A stretch of DNA of 64,000 bases, from positions 1 through 64,000 of the IMG/VR virus record IMGVR_UViG_3300032242_002123. One strand, given 5' to 3'. The translations under genes were made by a program, and so were the position numbers. This stretch comes from a virus. Within the stretch, counting starts at the first letter, position 1, and each line of letters opens with the position of its first letter. The notes beneath the pieces were generated by a model. It was given only the letters and a program-made list of their open reading frames with translations, did no database searches and was not told the origin of the DNA. Positions 5,853 through 35,624 of this stretch are shown one piece after another.

Positions 5853-6128
5853 ATGTCATTTCAATATCTTCCTTTATCTGCTCATTTAACCGCTGCTCCA
5901 AAAGATCATTCTTGGGTAGAAGTAGATAATTCTCTTCCTTTATTTGCACAAGTAACTTATCAAACAGGTACTTGGCAAATTCCTGAATTTGATAATATTT
6001 CTATTACAAATGATGGAAGTGGAAATCCTTTGCAATATGATTATTCAAAGAACGGAACAATTGTTGCAACTCTTTCTTGCACATACGATGGTAGCAATTA
6101 TCTGACAAATATTCAGCAGATATTATAA
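5853..6128 (+). CDS. Small fibre-associated protein (91 aa)
   Basis: An all-beta-looking 91-residue protein. Its first 40 residues resemble the start of the protein at 8845: both contain SW, then PLFAQ(V/A)TY and a Thr. This points to a shared attachment or assembly module in the adhesin cluster. It is followed after 14 nt by the Cys-rich adhesin. A dyad late-type element sits directly at the start codon and no Shine-Dalgarno sequence is present. Confidence 0.65.
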   Translation: MSFQYLPLSAHLTAAPKDHSWVEVDNSLPLFAQVTYQTGTWQIPEFDNISITNDGSGNPLQYDYSKNGTIVATLSCTYDGSNYLTNIQQIL

Positions 6129-6142
6129 AGGAGATTGTGTAA

Positions 6143-8164
6143 ATGGACTGCACAGATCCAAATAATATAACATGTGATTGTAGTCTATTAAATGATTTCG
6201 GTTACTGTAATGGTGAAGTTATACCAGATTCTTTTGGAGGCTTTTGTGAAAACGATTGTATTACAAATGGTCCATATTGTTGTTTTACTGGTAGTAATGG
6301 TATTTGTCAAAATCAATATTCTCTATTGACTTATTGTTATCCAGAAATAGATCCTAACGGGACTCCTTGTACAGCAGAGGATCTAGATGCTCTTAGATAT
6401 TGTTTTGGAACTTGCAACGACCAGTACGCTTGCGGAGAAGATCAATACGGATGCCTTTTTGATTATGTTGGCAGTGGTTGTGGAATAGATATTTGTGGAA
6501 GTTATGGTAGCAATAATTGCGGAGGAGTTACCGACCCATGCCAATGCGGATGCCAAAGTTATGATGATTTTAGTGTCTGTGGTGGATCTTGTTTTTATAT
6601 TGATGGAGTTTGTGGAGAGAGTGGTGGTGTATGTCAATATGATCTAGGTTGTGGATGCGGTAATCATGCTCCTTATTCTGGAACTTCAAATTGCGATTTA
6701 TGTAATTGTGGTGGGGGTGATCCATGTTCTGATTTTGGTTGCGGTTGTGGAAATCCAAATGTTCCGGGTTGTAATATTTTAGGCTCTTGTAACTATAGTC
6801 AATCTGCTGGTTGTGATGATGGAAGTTGTTATTGGGGTTGCAATGATATTAATGCAAGAAACTATCATAATGATTGCAACTCTTGCTGGTATGTAGATTG
6901 TAATGATATTTTTGCTTGTAACTATGATCAAAATTCTTTTGGACCTAACGAATGTACATATCCAATAGATTTACTTCACAATTGCGATGGAAGTTGTAAT
7001 CAAACTAATGATGACTGTAATGTATGTGGAGGTTCTTGTTTTAGTGGTTGCTGTGTTAACGGTAACGGTAACGGTGGTTCTTGTGGTTCCACTAATGTAA
7101 CAGATTATTTTGGTAATGGCTGCTGTAGTGATACAATAGGAACAGATATTTTAGGTAATAGTCTCTGTAATGGTTATGGTCCTTATTGCACTGATGCTAC
7201 AGCTTGTAGTGAAGATATTAATGGTTGTTTTTATAAAGCATGTAATGGGAATTGTACAAGTCGCACCAAAACACTTTGGCCTAATTGCGCTCAACCTTCA
7301 ATACAGCCTTCTGTGCTTGTTTCTTATAAAGTAGGAGCATTACCAGTTCCGAAAAACCCAAATGATCCAGCACTTAAAAATGTTCTTCTTGCACAAAATA
7401 CAAATTTCCCATTGATACTTCAAGCTGGTTTGGGGTCTACACCTAGACCCTCACACACCCCAACACCTACACCGTCATCAACTCCGACACCTACACCAAC
7501 ACCTACTCCAACACCTACTCCAACTCCAACACCACTACCGTTAGGTGTTGTACCATTCAGAACAGTAGGTGCTGATACATTTACGGTTCCGTCTGGAGTA
7601 TTTGGACTAAGTGCTTTAGTTGTCGCTGGTGGTGGTGCAAGTAATGGTGGTGCTGGTGGTTTAATTTTTGAAACACTGAGTGTTACTCCGGGTGATATAA
7701 TCAATGTTTTTGTAGGTGATGGCGGAACCGCTGGCAATAATGGTCAAAATTCCATTTTTGGTTCTTTAACTGCTATTGGTGGTGGTTCTGGTGCTGGTGG
7801 TTTTGGTAATGGACATGATGGTGGTTCTGGTGGTGGTGCTGCTGCTTTTGGTGGGCCACATACTGGCGGTGTTAATACACCAAATCAAGGACATAGAGGT
7901 GGGAACGCTGAAGGAATATCTCACGGTGGTGGTGGTGGTGCTGGTGGTGTTGGTCAGAATGGTACTTATTCCGGTAGCGGTAATGGTGGTAGAGGATTGT
8001 CATTTGATATATCTGGAACACCTACATATTATGCTGGTGGTGGTGGTGTAGTTGGTGGTCTTGGTGGTGGAGGAAGTAGTGGTCAAGATGGTTCCCCAAA
8101 TACTGGTGGTGGTGGAGGTTTTCGTGCAAATGGAGGATCTGGTATTGTTATTATAAAATATTAA
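6143..8164 (+). CDS. Cys-rich, Pro/Thr-linked, Gly-rich adhesin (673 aa)
   Basis: Three parts are visible. Residues 1-390 hold roughly 80 cysteines in irregular repeats, including units like FACNYDQNSFGPNECTY and GCDDGSCYWGC that recall Cys-containing repeats of secreted Bacteroidota proteins. About residues 432-467 are a PTPTPT linker. About 475-673 form a glycine-rich domain (poly-Gly runs) of the type found in phage receptor-binding tips. It is probably a tail fibre or receptor-binding protein. A Shine-Dalgarno AAGGAG (6128-6133) sits 9 nt before the start, unusual in this window. High Cys content is odd for a protein folded in bacterial cytoplasm. Confidence 0.75.
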   Translation: MDCTDPNNITCDCSLLNDFGYCNGEVIPDSFGGFCENDCITNGPYCCFTGSNGICQNQYSLLTYCYPEIDPNGTPCTAEDLDALRYCFGTCNDQYACGEDQYGCLFDYVGSGCGIDICGSYGSNNCGGVTDPCQCGCQSYDDFSVCGGSCFYIDGVCGESGGVCQYDLGCGCGNHAPYSGTSNCDLCNCGGGDPCSDFGCGCGNPNVPGCNILGSCNYSQSAGCDDGSCYWGCNDINARNYHNDCNSCWYVDCNDIFACNYDQNSFGPNECTYPIDLLHNCDGSCNQTNDDCNVCGGSCFSGCCVNGNGNGGSCGSTNVTDYFGNGCCSDTIGTDILGNSLCNGYGPYCTDATACSEDINGCFYKACNGNCTSRTKTLWPNCAQPSIQPSVLVSYKVGALPVPKNPNDPALKNVLLAQNTNFPLILQAGLGSTPRPSHTPTPTPSSTPTPTPTPTPTPTPTPTPLPLGVVPFRTVGADTFTVPSGVFGLSALVVAGGGASNGGAGGLIFETLSVTPGDIINVFVGDGGTAGNNGQNSIFGSLTAIGGGSGAGGFGNGHDGGSGGGAAAFGGPHTGGVNTPNQGHRGGNAEGISHGGGGGAGGVGQNGTYSGSGNGGRGLSFDISGTPTYYAGGGGVVGGLGGGGSSGQDGSPNTGGGGGFRANGGSGIVIIKY

Positions 8165-8844: not shown

Positions 8845-9354
8845 ATGAATCTCACGCCAAAAGTTTCCCAAATTCCATATAATCCGAATGTTGCCCTTAA
8901 TAATTCTTGGATTACGATTGAAAATGATCAAAATAGACCTTTATTTGCACAGGCTACATATATTACTAATGTTCAGGATATTGATTATCAAATTGGGTTA
9001 TTAATAAATGAAATAAAAGAATTAAATAACCGTAATGGATTTGATGTTATTGATGATACTAATCCACATTTTGGTGATTATTCAATTCTTAAATTAATAG
9101 CGGATACAAAGTTTACAGATGTTAGTGCGAATAATGCAACGGTAGGAAATCTTTCTGCATACGAATTACCACAAGGTTTTGAATTAAATGGAAGAATTAA
9201 AGGATTCCAATTACAATACGGTGCTGTTATTGCATATAAAGAACTAGATGAATATCGTTTTGATAACAGTGTTATTGGTATTGATGGAAAAGAACTTGTT
9301 TCCCTAACAGGTGATGCGTTAAATCCTGTAGCGATTGTAACTATTACTCCTTAA
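8845..9354 (+). CDS. Fibre-cluster protein (169 aa)
   Basis: The first 40 residues share SW...PLFAQATY with the protein at 5853, a likely common attachment module. The rest is mixed alpha/beta with no recognised motif. It lies between two fibre-type genes, suggesting an adaptor or short-fibre function. The element ATAAGTATT is 12 nt before the ATG and there is no Shine-Dalgarno sequence. Confidence 0.6.
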   Translation: MNLTPKVSQIPYNPNVALNNSWITIENDQNRPLFAQATYITNVQDIDYQIGLLINEIKELNNRNGFDVIDDTNPHFGDYSILKLIADTKFTDVSANNATVGNLSAYELPQGFELNGRIKGFQLQYGAVIAYKELDEYRFDNSVIGIDGKELVSLTGDALNPVAIVTITP

Positions 9355-9401: not shown

Positions 9402-12092
9402 ATGGCAACAACAACAAAAACATTCCCAAGCTTCACAACAAATACAACACCGACTTCTGGTGATTATTTAGTAGGTTATTTCGCAGATGGTTCACAAGAA
9501 TTCAAAGCAACAGTAAACACTATCGGTGCAAATGTATCCGATGCAAGTGGTAATATTGTTGCAAGACAAGGTAATAACACAGCTTCTGGTGGTTATACAG
9601 TAGTTGCTGGTGGTAAAAATAATAATGTTGGAACTTGCTATGACGTAATTGCTGGTGGTCTTCAAAACACTGTTAATGTAGGCCCAACAAATACATATGG
9701 ATGTTCATTTGTTGGTGGTGGTTTTAATAATACCGTTGATGGTCAAGCTTCAGTAATTGTTGGTGGTGCAAATAATCATATAGATAATGATGCATGTTAC
9801 AGTACTGTTGTTGGTGGTTCTGATAACTCAGCAAAATTTAATAATTCATTCGTAGGTGGTGGTTGTAATAACGTTGCTGGAACCCAACATGCAGTAGTAG
9901 TTGGTGGTAAAGATAACGTTTCTTGTAGTACAGCAAGTGGCCCTCAAAACTCACCTTTCGTTGGTGCTGGTCATGATAACAAAGCTTGTGGTTATTGGAA
10001 TCCAGTAGTAGTTGGTGGTGCTTATAACTGTGCAACAGGAAGTAATACCTTTGTTGGTGGTGGTTGTAGAAATCGTGCACAAGGTTATCATTCAGTAGTT
10101 ACTGGTGGTAATGATAATACAGCTTATAATAGTAATGATACCATTTCTGGTGGTGGTGATAATAAAACATGTAGCACTGAGTGGGGTGGTAATACAATTT
10201 CTGGTGGTTATTCTAACTGCACTGGTGATAATGTGGGAACTGGTTCCGCAACAATTGGTGGCGGTGGACAAAATTCCGCTTCTGGATATTATTCAACAAT
10301 TGGTGGTGGTTATAATAACTATACTAATGATGAATGTACAACAGTTGCTGGTGGTGCAGATAACTCGGTTTATGATATTTATTCAACAGTTGGTGGTGGT
10401 AGAATAAACCATGTTTATGGTTCTTGTTCAACAATTGCTGGTGGTGCTTATAACTATATTAACGGTCAAGCAGCAACAATCGGTGGTGGACATGCAAACT
10501 ATGCAACTGATGAACATGCAGCAATTTTTGCTGGTGCTCATAACTGTGCAGACGCTTTAAATGCAACAGTAGTTGGTGGTTATCGTAACTGTGCATTAGG
10601 TCAAGATTCATTTGTTGGTGCTGGTCAACATAATACAGCCTTTGGTTATTCCGCAACAATTGCTGGTGGTTGCTGTAACTATGCTGGTGATGCTAATATC
10701 TTTAATGGTGGTGCAACAGTTGGTGGTGGTTGGTGTAATGCTGCCGTAGCTTGCTTTGGTGGTGCAACAATTGCTGGTGGTCACAATAACATTGCAATTG
10801 GTTGTTGGAATCCAACAGTCGGTGGTGGTAGTAAGAACGTAGCAGTTGGTAGTAACACAACAGTTTCTGGTGGTTATTGCAACCATGCTTACGGTTATCA
10901 CTCAATTGTTGCTGGTGGTACATGTAACTCTGCTACTGGTAATCATGCATCAATCGGTGGTGGTTATTGCAACGTTGCTGGTGCTATTGAATGTATCTAT
11001 GTAGATTCATCAGTTCCTACCTCTTCTGGTTGGTTCTATGGACAATCTTGTGGTGGAGATTGGTATCTTGCAAAGGAAAACGGAGATGCTTGCATTGTTC
11101 GTGTTAATAGTGGATTAAAGCAATGTTGGAATCTTGTTGATAACCAAGAAGAGACTATATCTTTTTATAATGATAATTTCTTAGAAAATGATGCTTGGTA
11201 TGCCTGTCATAATTATACTTTAAATTATGTTAGCACAAATCGTTCATATGATTCAACAGTTGGTGGTGGTTATTGCAATATTGCATTAGGTACTGATGAT
11301 ACTGTTTCTGGTGGTTCTTACAACGTAACAACTGGTAGTTTTGCTTATACTTGCGCACCGAATGCAATTAGCTGTGGTAATACAAATACAATTTCTGGTG
11401 GTTATGGTAATTCAACAGTATTAGGTTCTTGTAACACAATTTCTGGCGGTTACGGAAACGGTGGCATATTCAATGTTGGTACAACAATTTCTGGTGGTTA
11501 TAACAATACTGCTTTTGGTTCCGAACTTTCAACAATTGGTGGTGGTAAAAATAACTTTGTAACTGATGTTTATACAACAGTTTCAGGTGGTTGCGGAAAC
11601 TCTGCTGTAAGTTGCAAAGCAACAGTAAGTGGTGGTGCTCATAACCATGCAACTGGTCAATATTCAGTAATCGCTGGTGGTGGTCATCATTGTGCATCTG
11701 GTAGACATTCAACAATTGCTGGTGGTCGTTGTAACATAGCTTCAGGTAATTGTTCATCAATCCTTGGTGGTATTAATAATAGTACAGATGAATATGACAA
11801 TGCTCATATTATTGGTTCTGGTATCACAGCAAATAAACCTAACTTCACTTTTGTTAATAACTTAGATGTTGATGGTGAGGTATATGTCGGTGATACTATT
11901 AATACTAATGCTGTCTATGGTGGTAGTACCTTATCATTAGGTGTATCTGGTCAAGAAGTTATTAAAGCTGATAACCACTCTGGTAAAAGAGCTATTACAT
12001 ATCTTAGAATGACAAGTCAAAACGGTCTTTCATCATTCAATGTTACAATTGACAATTCTGGTCAATTAGTAGCAACTAGAAATGATGCATAA
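9402..12092 (+). CDS. YadA-head-like repeat tail fibre (896 aa)
   Basis: After about 50 N-terminal residues, most of the protein is a long series of short repeats of the form GGG-x-x-N-x-A-x-G-x-x-S-T-(I/V), each one or two turns. This is the hallmark of left-handed parallel beta-roll or trimeric YadA-type head repeats. One non-repeat insertion lies near residues 530-620. The last 110 residues (from about VNNLDVDGEVYVGDTI) look like a phage fibre C-terminal foot or chaperone-like region. About 35-40 cysteines recur at equivalent repeat positions, often directly before Asn (GGYCN, GGGCNN). Probable long tail fibre. The TAAATATT element lies 10 nt upstream of the ATG. Confidence 0.75.
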   Translation: MATTTKTFPSFTTNTTPTSGDYLVGYFADGSQEFKATVNTIGANVSDASGNIVARQGNNTASGGYTVVAGGKNNNVGTCYDVIAGGLQNTVNVGPTNTYGCSFVGGGFNNTVDGQASVIVGGANNHIDNDACYSTVVGGSDNSAKFNNSFVGGGCNNVAGTQHAVVVGGKDNVSCSTASGPQNSPFVGAGHDNKACGYWNPVVVGGAYNCATGSNTFVGGGCRNRAQGYHSVVTGGNDNTAYNSNDTISGGGDNKTCSTEWGGNTISGGYSNCTGDNVGTGSATIGGGGQNSASGYYSTIGGGYNNYTNDECTTVAGGADNSVYDIYSTVGGGRINHVYGSCSTIAGGAYNYINGQAATIGGGHANYATDEHAAIFAGAHNCADALNATVVGGYRNCALGQDSFVGAGQHNTAFGYSATIAGGCCNYAGDANIFNGGATVGGGWCNAAVACFGGATIAGGHNNIAIGCWNPTVGGGSKNVAVGSNTTVSGGYCNHAYGYHSIVAGGTCNSATGNHASIGGGYCNVAGAIECIYVDSSVPTSSGWFYGQSCGGDWYLAKENGDACIVRVNSGLKQCWNLVDNQEETISFYNDNFLENDAWYACHNYTLNYVSTNRSYDSTVGGGYCNIALGTDDTVSGGSYNVTTGSFAYTCAPNAISCGNTNTISGGYGNSTVLGSCNTISGGYGNGGIFNVGTTISGGYNNTAFGSELSTIGGGKNNFVTDVYTTVSGGCGNSAVSCKATVSGGAHNHATGQYSVIAGGGHHCASGRHSTIAGGRCNIASGNCSSILGGINNSTDEYDNAHIIGSGITANKPNFTFVNNLDVDGEVYVGDTINTNAVYGGSTLSLGVSGQEVIKADNHSGKRAITYLRMTSQNGLSSFNVTIDNSGQLVATRNDA

Positions 12093-12204: not shown

Positions 12205-12444
12205 ATGAGCATAAATGTCGTAACACAACCTCAACAGACTGTATCTCTCTCCGCAGTAGAAGTAATTGCAGTAAGAGATCTTTTCAACGAGAAGACAATC
12301 ATCGCCAGAATCAAAGGTCTCCCAAGACCAGTTGTTCTCTGGACAGGTGAAGCAGATTACACAGCCGCTGGTGATTGGACAAACGCAACTGCAACAGCAA
12401 AAGCTACAGCAGTTCTTTCCTTGTCCTCAATCCCTTGGGCATAA
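12205..12444 (+). CDS. Small, probably very highly expressed protein (79 aa)
   Basis: A 79-residue protein starting MSINVVTQPQQTVSLSAVEV, related at its N-terminus to the products at 8553 and 12542. Codon use is richer in C-ending codons (ATC, CTC, GCC, AAC) than in neighbouring genes, as expected for strong expression. The gene has its own late-type element, a strong leader hairpin and a strong terminator. The role may be virion decoration or fibre association; not recognised. Confidence 0.7.
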   Translation: MSINVVTQPQQTVSLSAVEVIAVRDLFNEKTIIARIKGLPRPVVLWTGEADYTAAGDWTNATATAKATAVLSLSSIPWA

Positions 12445-12469
12445 GTTAACAATAACTTAAAAACACAGA

Positions 12470-12501
12470 AAGACACTCTTTAATTAGAGTGTCTTTTTTT
12501 T
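12470..12501 (+). terminator. Intrinsic terminator
   Basis: AAGACACTCT-TTAATT-AGAGTGTCTT, a perfect 10-bp stem running into a T tract. Confidence 0.92.
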
Positions 12502-12541
12502 AAAAAAAGAGTTTATACAAATGATAAATATTAATGTACCC

Positions 12542-14179
12542 ATGAGCATACAACTACCAAAAATAAACTTCAATCAATTATCCGCAGTGGATATTAATAG
12601 TATAAACCCTAATGATGTTATTAACTATAATAATAGTTGTCAACCAGCTATAAGGTGGTTATATACTGCTGAAGATGGTAAAGATCTTGAAGGAAAAACT
12701 GGATCATTAAGAAATGGAGATCCATTACCAAAAGGAAAAGTTAATCCAGATATAAATCCAAACGTAACAACAACTGTATTAGCAAGTTCTATAGATTGGT
12801 CTTTACAAAGTTATTATTATGGATGGGGTGATGTTGTTAGTAATGCAAATCAAGGTGATAAAGCTTTAGGTGATGGTCAAACAATTGTTATAGTTAATAA
12901 ATTCGGATCTAAATATGCATTGCAAGATTTGCAAACCTTTGCGGCAAATTATCCCAGTATGCCAGCACCTAAACTTCAAATAATTAATTTAGAAGATGTA
13001 TATCCTAGTCTTGGTAAATTTAGTTGGGATTATTTTAAAAATAGTAATGATCAAGAATTAAAAAGAGCAGCAGTTGGATGGGCTTCGGAGACTAGTTTAG
13101 ATTTACAAGCTGCTTGGATGATGGCACCCAAAGCTAATATAATTTTAGTTGTTACTCCATATGCATCAGGTTGTGATACTACACTTCTTGGTATGCAGTA
13201 TGCAATTAATAGCCTTAGTGCAAAAAATATATCATGCAGCTGGGGGTATGATGAAAGAGACTTAATTTCACAAAATAAATCTTCAATACAATATACACAT
13301 CCTACTTTCTTTTTTGATGATAATAGTACTATGAGATTTGCATCATTATCAGGAATAGAATTTGTTATATATTTTGAACATTTTGTTCTTGAAAAAAGAA
13401 TATGTTCTTATACTGTTGCAACTGGTGATAAAGGTGGTCAGTTAATGTATCCAGCATCATCTCCTAATTCTTTAGCAATTGGTGGTACACAATTTTATAA
13501 TACTTATGAAAATAATGTTTCTACTGGACTTTTTAATGAAACCTTATGGCCTCATGCAGCTTGTGGTGTAACTAATTTTTTCAATAGACCATCATATCAA
13601 GATTCTTTTAACTTAAATACAAGAAGATCAGTACCCGATATATCTTATAATTCCGGAACTGGCGTTCAAATATTTTTCACCAATCCTTTTAATGCTCTTG
13701 GAACTGGCACATACATATATTCAGCCGGGACAAGTGCAGCTACACCACAAATAGCATCATTTTTGGCTGTATTAAAAGCAACCAATTCTTTATCTGCTTT
13801 GAACGATCCAACAATTAAAAATTTATTTTATGGTAATGCTAGAAGCAATTATTCTTTATATTTTAATGATATAAAAACAGGAACTACTGCTAATGAAGGT
13901 TATCAGAATCAATCAGCTGCAAATGGATTTGATGTTGCTACTGGATTAGGAAGTCCAAAAATTAATAAATTTGTTACTTTTATACCATCAAGTCCAACTC
14001 CAACTCCAACTAAAACCAAAACACCTACTCCAACTCCAACTCCAACTAAAACATCTACACCAACTCCAACTAAAACACCAACTCCAACTAAAACACCAAC
14101 TCCAACTAAAACACCAACTCCAACTAAAACACCTACTCCAACTAAAACACCTACTCCTACTGCTACTAGACGTAGATAA
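12542..14179 (+). CDS. Sedolisin-like (S53 family) serine-carboxyl protease with Pro/Thr tail (545 aa)
   Basis: All S53 signatures are present. E183 and D187 lie in ASETSLDLQAAW (Glu-x3-Asp). D296 is in ATGDKGG, followed by YPASSPNSLAIGGT. The nucleophile S398 is in AGTSAATP. A calcium-site-like C-terminal segment ends in GFDVATGLGSP. A Ser-Glu-Asp peptidase of this type cleaves proteins, usually at acid pH. There is no long propeptide and no signal peptide: the first 20 residues instead match the small proteins at 8553 and 12205. The C-terminus is a (PTPTKT)n tail ending in TATRRR. The ATG at 12542 is preferred to 12521, which overlaps the GATAAATATTA element. Probably a virion-bound protease near tail fibres; location is inferred. 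Confidence 0.85.
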   Translation: MSIQLPKINFNQLSAVDINSINPNDVINYNNSCQPAIRWLYTAEDGKDLEGKTGSLRNGDPLPKGKVNPDINPNVTTTVLASSIDWSLQSYYYGWGDVVSNANQGDKALGDGQTIVIVNKFGSKYALQDLQTFAANYPSMPAPKLQIINLEDVYPSLGKFSWDYFKNSNDQELKRAAVGWASETSLDLQAAWMMAPKANIILVVTPYASGCDTTLLGMQYAINSLSAKNISCSWGYDERDLISQNKSSIQYTHPTFFFDDNSTMRFASLSGIEFVIYFEHFVLEKRICSYTVATGDKGGQLMYPASSPNSLAIGGTQFYNTYENNVSTGLFNETLWPHAACGVTNFFNRPSYQDSFNLNTRRSVPDISYNSGTGVQIFFTNPFNALGTGTYIYSAGTSAATPQIASFLAVLKATNSLSALNDPTIKNLFYGNARSNYSLYFNDIKTGTTANEGYQNQSAANGFDVATGLGSPKINKFVTFIPSSPTPTPTKTKTPTPTPTPTKTSTPTPTKTPTPTKTPTPTKTPTPTKTPTPTKTPTPTATRRR

Positions 14180-14193
14180 TTTAAATAAAATAG

Positions 14194-14229: not shown

Positions 14230-15228
14230 ATGATTTCTTTTGTAGACATAATTGTTGGCCTTGCTTGGGGTGATGAGGGCAAGGGTAAAATATCAAGTGC
14301 ATTAGCCAAAGACTATGACATGGTTTGTCGTTGGAATGGCGGACCAAATGCTGGTCATACTGTTTATATTGAAGACAAGAAATATAAAACTCATTTAATT
14401 CCATCTGGTGTTTTTCATAATAAATTATCAATTATTGGACCTAATTGTGTAATTAATATAGACAAATTTTATGAAGAACTTGATTATCTTAAAGAAAACG
14501 GTTTTGATATCTCTTTGGTCAAGATTCATCCTAATGCTCATGTCATTACACAGGATCATATATCATATGATGTAAATGTCCTTAAACCTAAACTTGGCAC
14601 TACAGGTCAAGGTATTGCTCCTTGTTATGCTGACAAAATGGTTCGTTCCGGTTTACAGATTAAAAATTATATCACATCGAATTTCCTATGGGATGGAAAA
14701 CTTTCAGGAAAGATCCTTTGCGAAGGAGCACAATCTGTTTGGCTTGATATTAATCATGGAAATTATCCATATGTGACAAGTAGTGAGACTCTTCCATATG
14801 CCGCTTGTTCTCTTGGATTCTCACCAAAGAAGATTCGTGATATTTACGGTATAGCTAAAATCTATGATACTAAAAGTGGCGTAGATCCTTTGTTTCCTGA
14901 ATCTCTTTGGGAGAATGAAGAACTTAATAAAATTATAGAAGCGGGTGGAGAAGTTGGAACTACTACTGGTAGAAAAAGACTCGTGAATTATCTCAATATT
15001 CCTTTATTATTAGAGGCTATTAATATATCAGGCGTTACAAAGGTTATTATTAATAAATGTGATGTACTAGAGTCTCTAGGTATTTACAAACTTCTTATCA
15101 ATCAAGTTCGTACATATAGTTGCTTTGAAGAAGTAAAAGATGTTATTAGTCTTTATATTTCTAATGGAAACGTCAATGGCATCACAGAAAATGATATTGT
15201 ATTTTCCGGAGATGTAACTAAGATATAA
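14230..15228 (+). CDS. purA: Adenylosuccinate synthetase homologue, short form (332 aa)
   Basis: GTP-dependent joining of IMP and aspartate to adenylosuccinate is the known PurA reaction. Visible motifs are WGDEGKGK with the catalytic Asp, NGGPNAGHT with the catalytic His, GTTGQGIAPCYADK, CEGAQSVWLDINHGNYPYVTSS, the Asp-binding loop VGTTTGRKR and a guanine-site INKCDVL. At 332 residues it is about 100 shorter than typical bacterial PurA, like archaeal PurA and phage PurZ. The Asp in WGDEGKG favours PurA chemistry over PurZ, where this residue is reported to be changed. Purine supply for phage DNA is the likely role. A leaderless promoter lies directly upstream. Confidence 0.88.
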   Translation: MISFVDIIVGLAWGDEGKGKISSALAKDYDMVCRWNGGPNAGHTVYIEDKKYKTHLIPSGVFHNKLSIIGPNCVINIDKFYEELDYLKENGFDISLVKIHPNAHVITQDHISYDVNVLKPKLGTTGQGIAPCYADKMVRSGLQIKNYITSNFLWDGKLSGKILCEGAQSVWLDINHGNYPYVTSSETLPYAACSLGFSPKKIRDIYGIAKIYDTKSGVDPLFPESLWENEELNKIIEAGGEVGTTTGRKRLVNYLNIPLLLEAINISGVTKVIINKCDVLESLGIYKLLINQVRTYSCFEEVKDVISLYISNGNVNGITENDIVFSGDVTKI

Positions 15229-15242
15229 TATATAAATTTAAT

Positions 15243-15314
15243 TGCCTTGTAGTGTAACTGGTAGCACCAATCTCTTTGAAAGATTTAGTTTAGGATCGTA
15301 CCCTAACGAGGCAG
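15243..15314 (+). tRNA. tRNA-Gln(TTG)
   Basis: Acceptor TGCCTTG/CGAGGCA, anticodon stem AATCT/AGATT with loop CTTTGAA (TTG), discriminator G, CCA not encoded. Its 3' end overlaps the tail of an antisense HNH gene by 12 nt. Confidence 0.9.
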
Positions 15315-16049
15315 TAGTTTATTAAGAGCATTTTGTTTTTGCCAATAACCAATTTTTGGTAAAAATATATTATTTTTTATACAATGTTTTTTTATAGCAT
15401 TATCACTAACATTTAATTTTTTTGATAATTTTATTAAAGGGTATTTTAAAACCATATTAGATAATGTATTATTATTGGGCCAAATAATTTTAGTAGGTCT
15501 TGGTTTATTATATTTTTCTTTTTTATTTTTAATAGATATTTTACTTTTTGAAGATTTACCAGCAAATGTATCAGTTTGACTATGGCAATTAGGACAAAGA
15601 AAACAAAGATTTTCTAATCTATTATCATCAGATATTCCATTTATATGTTCTAATTGTAGAACCAATTTTTTATTATTCCAATTTCCATTATTATTACAAT
15701 CTCTACATTCCCAATTTAGTAAATTAAATTTTAATAAATATTTTTTTAAATGACCTCTAGTTTTATTAGATTTTTCTGTTAACCATTCTTTTTTAAAAAT
15801 TTCTTTAGTAACTTTTCTACTATCAATAGAGGATTCTTCCCTACTCATAAAATGAGAAGTATCTAATTCTAATTCTATAATTCTTTGTTTAACTGTTCTA
15901 TTATTTCCTCCTTTATTTTTTAAATCAAAATGAGCTAAAACTTGTGTTGTTGTTTTTGAATTATTTACAAGATTTATAAAATCTTTATCAGATATTTTCC
16001 AAATAGGACTCCATCTATTTTTCTTTTTGGTAGTATAAATATTTTGCAT
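15303..16049 (-). CDS. HNH homing endonuclease (248 aa)
   Basis: The centre of the protein has WECRDC, then LQLEHINGISDDNRLENLCFLCPNCHSQ (positions about 128-160). This is an HNH nuclease core (E-H, N, H) framed by two CxxC zinc knuckles. The C-terminus has a helix-turn-helix-like segment (LIKLSKKLNVSDNAIKKH), common in homing endonucleases. It lies antisense between tRNA-Gln and tRNA-Tyr, and its stop codon is inside the tRNA-Gln gene, so it looks like a mobile gene inserted at a tRNA. The ATG at 16049 follows a GTAAGTATAAGTAT element and is preferred to the one at 16088. Confidence 0.88.
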   Translation of the reverse strand: MQNIYTTKKKNRWSPIWKISDKDFINLVNNSKTTTQVLAHFDLKNKGGNNRTVKQRIIELELDTSHFMSREESSIDSRKVTKEIFKKEWLTEKSNKTRGHLKKYLLKFNLLNWECRDCNNNGNWNNKKLVLQLEHINGISDDNRLENLCFLCPNCHSQTDTFAGKSSKSKISIKNKKEKYNKPRPTKIIWPNNNTLSNMVLKYPLIKLSKKLNVSDNAIKKHCIKNNIFLPKIGYWQKQNALNKLLPR

Positions 16050-16110
16050 TATACTTATACTTACAATTAAGATTTGACATTTCAACAAAAAAAGTATATA
16101 TTATACAAAT

Positions 16111-16204: not shown

Positions 16205-16231
16205 TTGACAAATTATATGTAATGTTATATC
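16205..16231 (+). promoter_or_regulatory. Sigma70-like promoter giving a near-leaderless transcript
   Basis: TTGACA (16205-16210), a short 15-nt spacer, TATATC (16226-16231), then 8 nt to the ATG at 16240. Confidence 0.45.
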
Positions 16232-16239
16232 ATTCCAAG

Positions 16240-16929
16240 ATGTCGAAAATTAAGTATAAAATTAAAGAAATACACCCTAAAGTATTCCTCGTAACAATAG
16301 ATAACTCATATGATCTTACAATGACATTTTGTCGAGTTCAAGAATTTTATGAATCTCCATATAAAGAAATTAGAGGCAAAGCCTTTAATATGATAGAATT
16401 TCAAAGAATATATGCAACGAGAAGAAATGAGAATTTCTTTTCATACCCAATTGATTGGGCAGGATTTAATATTCCTTCAAATGTAATTGAAGATTTCTTT
16501 GATAAATTTTATGCTAATTTTGATAAAAATGATTATAATATCTATGATAAAACATTTGAAGATATACATCTTAAAATTACAAATGAATTAAAAGAAGGTG
16601 ATTCTTATTATGTCATAGGTTCAGATCCAAAAAATAAAGATACAATCAATCATGAATTGTCTCATGCTTTTTATTACTTGTATCCTGATTATAAAAAGCA
16701 AGCGGATAAGATTATAAGTAAAATTCCAGATAAGAGTTTTAATAAAATAAAAAATACTTTATATGATCTTGGTTACAACTCCAAAGTTATTAAAGATGAA
16801 GTGCAAGCTTATCTTGCAAATGATTATGATACAATTACTCAAGATATAAAACTTGGTGGCAAACAAAAGAATATCATTGACAATATTAAGAATGAGCTTA
16901 AAGTATTAAATAATAAAATGCACGAGTAG
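16240..16929 (+). CDS. Putative zinc metallopeptidase-like protein (229 aa)
   Basis: Residues about 143-152 read INHELSHAFYYLYP, an HExxH zinc-peptidase motif in a helix. DEVQAYLA about 50 residues later could supply a third ligand. The rest is not recognised, and substrate and location are unknown. The ATG at 16240 fits the promoter spacing better than 16222. The last three codons (ATG-CAC-GAG, then TAG) overlap the first 10 nt of tRNA-Val. A smaller HExxH protein occurs at 25125. Confidence 0.65.
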   Translation: MSKIKYKIKEIHPKVFLVTIDNSYDLTMTFCRVQEFYESPYKEIRGKAFNMIEFQRIYATRRNENFFSYPIDWAGFNIPSNVIEDFFDKFYANFDKNDYNIYDKTFEDIHLKITNELKEGDSYYVIGSDPKNKDTINHELSHAFYYLYPDYKKQADKIISKIPDKSFNKIKNTLYDLGYNSKVIKDEVQAYLANDYDTITQDIKLGGKQKNIIDNIKNELKVLNNKMHE

Positions 16930-35025: not shown

Positions 35026-35078
35026 TTTAAAAATATAAATTAATTGTGCATTCTAAAGATAAATATTAATATAAAATT

Positions 35079-35624
35079 ATGGCAGGATTATTTGACACAC
35101 AAGGAATAGAAAACTTCTACGATACAGCTATTGTTAACGATTTTGCTCGTCAAAATCTTTTCAGAGTAGTATCACTTGGAGGTACAAACTTCACACAACA
35201 AGAGTTACTTTATGTAACTACAACATCGCTCCCCGGAAGAGCAATTACAAACGTACAAGTTCCTTTCATGGGACTTCAGTTTAATGTTCCCGGTACAGCA
35301 AACTATCCTAATAGTGGTGGATGGCAAGTCACATTTAGACTTCCTTCAAACCTTTCTGTTAGAGGTAAGTTCGAAGATTGGACAAAGTTTATTTTCGATG
35401 ATCAAATAACATCAGGTGCTTATAGTATTCCTAATAAGGGTCCGCAATCACAAGTTATATTAGCTCTTCTTGATAAGAATGGTATTCCAATCAGAACTTA
35501 TACATTGTTCGGTGCATATTGCCAAGCTGTTGGAGATTTAACAGTAAATCTTACATCCGCTGGTGAAATCCTCGAACAACAAGCAACACTCGCTTACCAA
35601 TACTGGAGATTAACATCCATCTAA
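35079..35624 (+). CDS. Tail tube protein, gp19-like (181 aa)
   Basis: At 181 residues, close to T4 gp19 (163). The pattern LPGRAITNVQVPFMGLQFNV, then WQVTFRLPSNLSVRGKFEDW, is typical of the tube fold. It forms the inner tube through which DNA passes. The GATAAATATTA element lies 13 nt before the ATG and there is no Shine-Dalgarno sequence. Confidence 0.9.
   Translation: MAGLFDTQGIENFYDTAIVNDFARQNLFRVVSLGGTNFTQQELLYVTTTSLPGRAITNVQVPFMGLQFNVPGTANYPNSGGWQVTFRLPSNLSVRGKFEDWTKFIFDDQITSGAYSIPNKGPQSQVILALLDKNGIPIRTYTLFGAYCQAVGDLTVNLTSAGEILEQQATLAYQYWRLTSI

Follow-up and report, generated by a model that had tools for sequence, protein, structure and literature searches.

Why would a contractile-tailed phage carry a serine-carboxyl peptidase, and what would that enzyme cut? 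The question is raised by an open reading frame (ORF) at positions 12542-14179 of a 64,000-nucleotide stretch of viral DNA (hereafter the window), which belongs to the 70,782-bp IMG/VR record IMGVR_UViG_3300032242_002123. The record has genes for a tail sheath, baseplate hub, terminase and ribonucleotide reductase, and its terminase matches those of T4-superfamily phages (best match Sinorhizobium phage phiM9, 36%); the virus is a deep T4-like lineage with a contractile tail. It is near certain that the ORF encodes an S53 (sedolisin/kumamolisin) peptidase. On balance, and with little better than even confidence, we read its product as a late protease-adhesin, carried on the virion, that would cleave proteins of the host surface and whose distal adhesive part is missing in this genome.

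Identity and architecture of the S53 protein

The gene and the parts of its product are as follows, with residue numbers as in an earlier, sequence-only reading of this DNA, counted from the start at 12542.

12542-14179, plus strand: S53 (sedolisin-type) peptidase gene, 545 aa; an alternative ATG start at 12521 would give 552 aa
12641-12781, plus strand: phage-type N-terminal segment (QPAIRWLYTAEDGKDLEGKTGSLRNGDPLP...) in the place of the propeptide, residues 34-80, aligned with the N-termini of the related-phage proteins L139, L140 and L141
12782-13981, plus strand: S53 catalytic domain, residues 81-480, with an AlphaFold2 (AF2) predicted local distance difference test score (pLDDT) mostly >80
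13088-13102, plus strand: Glu183-x3-Asp187 predicted catalytic pair, invariant, matching kumamolisin-As E78/D82
13277-13408, plus strand: expanded loop, residues 246-289, shorter in every close relative
13427-13429, plus strand: Asp296, predicted oxyanion-hole aspartate, invariant, matching kumamolisin-As D164
13733-13735, plus strand: Ser398, predicted nucleophile in GTSAATP, invariant, matching kumamolisin-As S278
13868-13933, plus strand: predicted calcium-site region Asp443 to Asp464, with near-invariant D443, G462 and D464, matching kumamolisin-As D316 to D338
13994-14176, plus strand: C-terminal (PTPTKT)n tail read from the sequence, residues ~485-545, with no domain beyond

The sequence-only reading had proposed an S53 protease from the Glu183/Asp187, Asp296, Ser398, SSPNSLAIGGT and VATGLGSP motifs, all of which are present, and family searches and structure prediction bear the assignment out. 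The window protein matched sedolisin in a phmmer search (E=2.7e-10) and Peptidase_S8 (PF00082) in Pfam (E=1e-8), and the match is therefore not a chance one. A profile built from the phage clade aligned with kumamolisin-As over 338 residues (E=7.5e-34), pairing the four catalytic positions and the calcium aspartates D443 and D464 as listed above (kumamolisin-As numbers were counted from the alignment). E183, D187, D296 and S398 are invariant in alignments of 90 and of 69 sequences, and the D443, G462 and D464 columns are near-invariant in the 69-sequence alignment. Judged by these aligned and conserved residues, the protein appears to have both the S53 catalytic arrangement (Ser nucleophile, Glu-x3-Asp pair and oxyanion Asp) and the C-terminal calcium site of the family. 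Ser398 would act as the nucleophile, Glu183 and Asp187 as the acid/base pair and Asp296 as the oxyanion residue, with calcium held at Asp443/Asp464, and the protein would probably be proteolytically active.

Membership of the subtilases (S8) was considered and rejected. The Pfam match to PF00082 reflects the fold; the S8 Asp-His-Ser triad is not kept, and in the kumamolisin-As profile alignment the position of its His is taken by the S53 Glu-x3-Asp arrangement. The AF2 model of the S53 domain has a predicted template modelling score (pTM) of ~0.8, and its Foldseek matches in the PDB at ranks 1-17 are all sedolisin, kumamolisin or TPP1, with S8 enzymes first appearing at rank 18. The modelled fold is thus nearer to sedolisins than to subtilases.

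A large prosegment is usual in S53 enzymes, not universal, and core-only paralogues have been reported (PMC6278154); we treat the prosegment as a typical feature of the family and not as a defining one. The missing long propeptide, as first read, was confirmed by a Pfam search in which the window protein had no match to the Pro-kuma_activ prosegment (PF09286), while the same search finds PF09286 in the S53 proteins L004, L012, L016 and L018. L051, a bacterial protein from the clade of the window protein, likewise lacks a Pfam prosegment, and propeptide loss is therefore not phage-specific. The segment that stands in the place of the propeptide is modelled with AF2 confidence of ~41-67 and a weak beta hairpin at residues 38-55. 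It had been taken for an N-terminal peptide common to the neighbouring fibre genes; shuffling gave this no support, as the first 94 residues never score above shuffled sequences against the neighbouring N-termini, and the segment is instead common to the S53 proteins of related phages.

Within the expanded loop, pLDDT is <50 across most of residues 246-270. A 16-codon stretch (EFVIYFEHFVLEKRIC) before SYTVATGD was considered as a site of ribosome bypass or as a mobile insert, and the idea was dropped: the alignment of relatives can equally put the stretch on a normal helix, AF2 models a helix, and the frame is open. The Pro-Thr (PT) tail, noted in the first reading, is the only part of the protein that matches PHROGs (phrog_15511, annotated as unknown function); no match to a tail-annotated PHROGs family was found for the window S53 protein. 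Comparable Pro-Thr linkers in the related proteins L138 and G596 run into further domains.

Two signals lie between the conserved gene upstream (79 aa) and the S53 gene:

12479-12502, plus strand: intrinsic-terminator-like hairpin (AAGACACTCTTTAATTAGAGTGTCTTTTTTTT), read directly in the sequence
12526-12533, plus strand: TAAATATT, a late-promoter-like motif of T4-like type, just 5' of the ATG at 12542

The motif favours the start at 12542, as originally chosen, because it sits just 5' of that start and would overlap the start at 12521. Of the 57 window ORFs, 9 have TAARTATT in the 35 nt ahead of them, against 0.38 at random positions, for a motif picked post hoc after inspection of the sequence. 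An identical ATAAATATTAAT string lies at 35059, ahead of a gene at 35079, and in G596 a comparable ATAAGTAT is found before the S53 gene. The motif suggests that the S53 gene would be expressed late. Its GC content at third codon positions (GC3) is 0.12, near that of the core genes (sheath 0.15, terminase 0.16), so the gene is a resident one and a chimeric assembly is unlikely.

S53 proteins in related and unrelated viruses

Single-sequence searches of viral contigs and phages for close relatives found none; family and subclade alignments were needed. Related enzymes are encoded on four contigs of the same lineage (163-226 kb) and on two shorter contigs. The terminases of L138, L140 and L141 are 64-74% identical to that of the window and their sheaths 55-59%. 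Among lineage relatives S53 identity is 31-38%, against 64-82% for terminase; S53 diverges faster than the core genes, as would be expected for a host-facing protein.

In L138 to L142, the S53 domain is N-terminal in proteins of 1,567-3,337 aa that also have LamG (Laminin_G_3, E=1e-36), pentaxin or PKD domains, or else extended PT linkers. The L138 protein (3,337 aa) runs from an N-terminal S53 domain through Pro-Thr linkers and three Laminin_G_3 matches to a Gly-rich end, and the proteins of L139 to L142 (1,567-1,669 aa) include a pentaxin match in L139 and PKD domains in L141. G596, the nearest relative of the window genome (ribonucleotide reductase 95%), has a 647-aa protein made up of an S53 domain, a PT linker and a C-terminal region, and the window copy is the shortest version, an S53 domain with a bare PT tail. 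Directly 5' of the L141 S53 gene is one whose product resembles the T4-type subunits of the baseplate wedge. Just upstream of the L139 S53 gene is a gene for 1,494 aa (L139:5323-9807), whose product contains a von Willebrand A domain and matches nothing in phages.

A tree built without G596 groups the window protein with L138, L139, L140 and L141 at 100/97, nested in a wider group (100/98) with Burkholderia and Planctomycetota proteins. When ~570 genomes, drawn from the planctomycete phylum and from the class of Burkholderia, were searched for a donor, nothing closer than 37% was found. Well-supported branches of the tree force at least six changes between viral and bacterial carriers.

The sequence-only reading knew of no common phage protein of this kind, and a survey agrees: tblastn searches started from the window protein, from halves of sedolisin or kumamolisin and from a freshwater viral S53 found no S53 in 50,697 phage records. 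IMG/VR holds at least 57 distinct contigs with S53 relatives, some of which may include host DNA, and isolate collections thus seem to have missed S53. The S53 gene of L004, whose product keeps its propeptide, sits between tail-fibre and collar genes; those of L033 and L036 lie 3' of tail-fibre genes with a fibre-assembly gene nearby, and in L024 the gene ahead of S53 matches Mtd_N weakly. Tail association of viral S53 genes is recurrent, not universal.

Other features of these viral proteins were recorded. The VKT..TW C-terminal repeats of L034-type S53 proteins have no tblastn match in phages. The tail fibre of Synechococcus phage S-CAM1 was considered as a structural relative and set aside as weak (E=8e-3, TM 0.30), and the regions inspected added no support. 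The viral S53 gene at L039:8236-10656 carries an intein-like insertion of ~380 aa (CYDNETEVLT...VSWCGN, followed by S) placed exactly between SWG and xPEDQW, which is absent in the closely similar L043 protein.

We propose that the window ORF encodes an active-type S53 endopeptidase that would be made late in infection and be carried outside in the virion; there it would form a protease head borne on a Pro-Thr stalk, resembling the giant fibre-like homologues. Association with the virion or fibre is supported indirectly, because related phages fuse S53 to giant LamG/PKD/PT-linker proteins and because unrelated viral S53 genes adjoin tail-fibre genes. The protease would cut a host-surface protein (S-layer, adhesin, pilus, matrix or receptor protein), which is plausible, and cleavage may expose a receptor or clear a path during adsorption. 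In the window genome, the distal adhesive part would have gone, leaving protease and stalk. A wider claim, that tailed phages repeatedly captured S53 and that at least one T4-like lineage mounts propeptide-free S53 on giant fibre-like stalks as tail-borne host-surface proteases, is put forward tentatively, at somewhat less than even confidence.

Gene neighbourhood and alternative roles

The S53 gene had been placed among tail-fibre genes, a description that is less secure. Upstream lie a gene with a PT linker and a Gly-rich part, another with beta-roll repeats and small conserved ones; PHROGs labels none of them tail fibre, and the S53 gene of the nearest relative lies elsewhere.

6143-8164, plus strand: gene for a PT linker, of the type in the S53 tail, followed by a Gly_rich_2 domain
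8845-9354, plus strand: small gene kept upstream of S53 in L138 (50% identical)
9402-12092, plus strand: beta-roll repeat protein (VGGGxxN repeats), a probable fibre or adhesin, with a weak LbR match below the Pfam cut-off
12205-12444, plus strand: conserved 79-aa gene upstream of S53 (91% identical in G596, 78% in L138)
12445-14190 (approximate), plus strand: block missing at the empty site of G596, where the 79-aa and PurZ-like genes are adjacent

Homologues of the genes at 5853-6128, 8845-9354 and 12205-12444 precede the L138 S53 gene with their order kept. In G596, the 79-aa gene adjoins the PurZ-like gene (76%) with no S53 between them, and the S53 gene lies ~4 kb from this empty site, after a tRNA-like sequence. 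Of 23 lineage contigs, 4 were found to carry S53, all of them among the 7 with a length of at least 160 kb. In this lineage S53 is thus an accessory gene that can move, and the window neighbourhood by itself is weak evidence for a fibre role.

Some neighbours have features of their own. The small genes at 5853-6128 and 8845-9354, whose homologues lie near the L138 S53 gene, have a short SWxxxxNxxPLFAQxTY motif in common. The 79-aa gene has a GC content of 0.45 and a GC3 of 0.33 in a genome of 0.32 GC, and is tandemly duplicated in L138. The product of 9402-12092 (896 aa) contains Cys and weakly resembles ice-binding LbR repeats. Downstream are a PurA/PurZ-type adenylosuccinate synthetase gene (14230-15228, phrog_1211), a possible link to modified DNA; beside it an HNH-endonuclease-like ORF on the minus strand (15303-16088), unmatched among the G596 ORFs compared; and a 235-aa ORF (16222-16929) with a metallopeptidase-like HELSH (HExxH) motif and no Pfam match, whose G596 homologue is 56% identical.

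Several points weigh against a virion-borne protease acting on the host surface. We infer the virion location from genomes alone, and likewise the host-surface substrate; the window copy lacks a C-terminal adhesive domain; the variable position of this accessory gene means that its neighbourhood says little; and in L014, a contig of 448 kb, the genes around S53 are non-structural. Known S53 enzymes act at acid pH (PMC6278154), which may not suit the surroundings of this host.

One alternative is a protease that is not bound to the virion but builds up in the cytoplasm, is released at lysis and degrades extracellular or surface protein, aiding the escape or spread of progeny. The missing stalk-tip domain, the accessory and mobile gene, the S53 relatives of other phages that lie away from structural genes and the resemblance of many bacterial relatives to secreted enzymes all point this way. 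We nevertheless consider it unlikely, as other members of the lineage carry the homologue as part of giant adhesin-like chains, an arrangement hard to square with a free enzyme, and no secretion signal was seen when the window protein was read by eye. A processing role, in which the protease would act at assembly by cleaving either the Pro-Thr stalk that it carries or a fibre next to it, much as self-cleaving tail-fibre chaperone domains do, is suggested by the L138 protein, where S53 stands directly ahead of long flexible linkers. This is improbable: S53 is missing from most lineage contigs, whose core assembly is thus independent of it, no conserved cleavage motif was identified, and in the window protein there is no further part to be released. 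Proximity to accessory genes, tRNAs and the PurZ-like gene, together with the unseen signal peptide, could instead suggest a host-takeover protease with intracellular targets, either host or defence proteins; the acid preference of S53 enzymes (PMC6278154) and the outward-pointing LamG/PKD/PT fusions make this more doubtful still. That a catalytically dead S53 fold is reused as a binding module, as a long divergent branch and the expanded loop might hint, is very improbable given that the window protein retains all four catalytic residues and the calcium aspartates, which are invariant or nearly so across the alignment despite strong divergence elsewhere.

Novelty and comparison with known systems

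Phage-tail enzymes are known mainly as cutters of carbohydrate. The S53 family itself is already known. A literature search, with most subscription journals outside its reach, found no paper on phage sedolisins and no description of S53 use by tailed phages with fusion to giant fibre-like proteins and loss of the usual prosegment. If the proposed role is right, tail-linked proteases would be a phage route through S-layers, protein matrices and adhesins, a protein-cutting counterpart to carbohydrate depolymerases, and the window protein a concrete enzyme for assay; propeptide-free enzymes could also serve as self-active sedolisins.

With sedolisin and kumamolisin (PDB 1ga1, 1sio, 1gt9) the window protein has in common the fold, the Ser-Glu-Asp residues and oxyanion Asp, the calcium aspartates and the SSPN/GGT and GTSA motifs. 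It differs in lacking the large activation prosegment, in its phage-type N-terminal segment, PT tail and expanded loop at 246-289, and in an identity of 19-25% in structural alignments. The Burkholderia (L051-L054) and Planctomycetota (L055, L059) proteins fall in the same wide clade and have a WAxESSLDVxWAHAIAP motif in common with it, and some planctomycete copies likewise end in PTPTP stretches; they are, however, chromosomal and 27-37% identical, and the Burkholderia copies begin with a signal-peptide-like segment. The proteins of L138-L142 fall in one clade with the window protein (100/97). The N-terminal segment is shared with L139-L141 and the PT linker with L138 and G596, and L138, L140, L141 and G596 belong to the same virus lineage; where the window copy stops after the linker, however, the L138-L142 and G596 proteins continue with LamG, pentaxin or PKD domains or with other C-terminal regions. 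Among viral proteins, the best structural matches are S53-annotated proteins of giant viruses (Terrestrivirus, Sylvanvirus, Homavirus and Barrevirus), which are not phages and have no tail link. Virion-associated phage depolymerases (PMC5380687) have no sequence kinship with the window protein and cut carbohydrate, whereas S53 would cut protein; the proposed role is nonetheless alike, namely enzymatic clearing of the host surface at adsorption.
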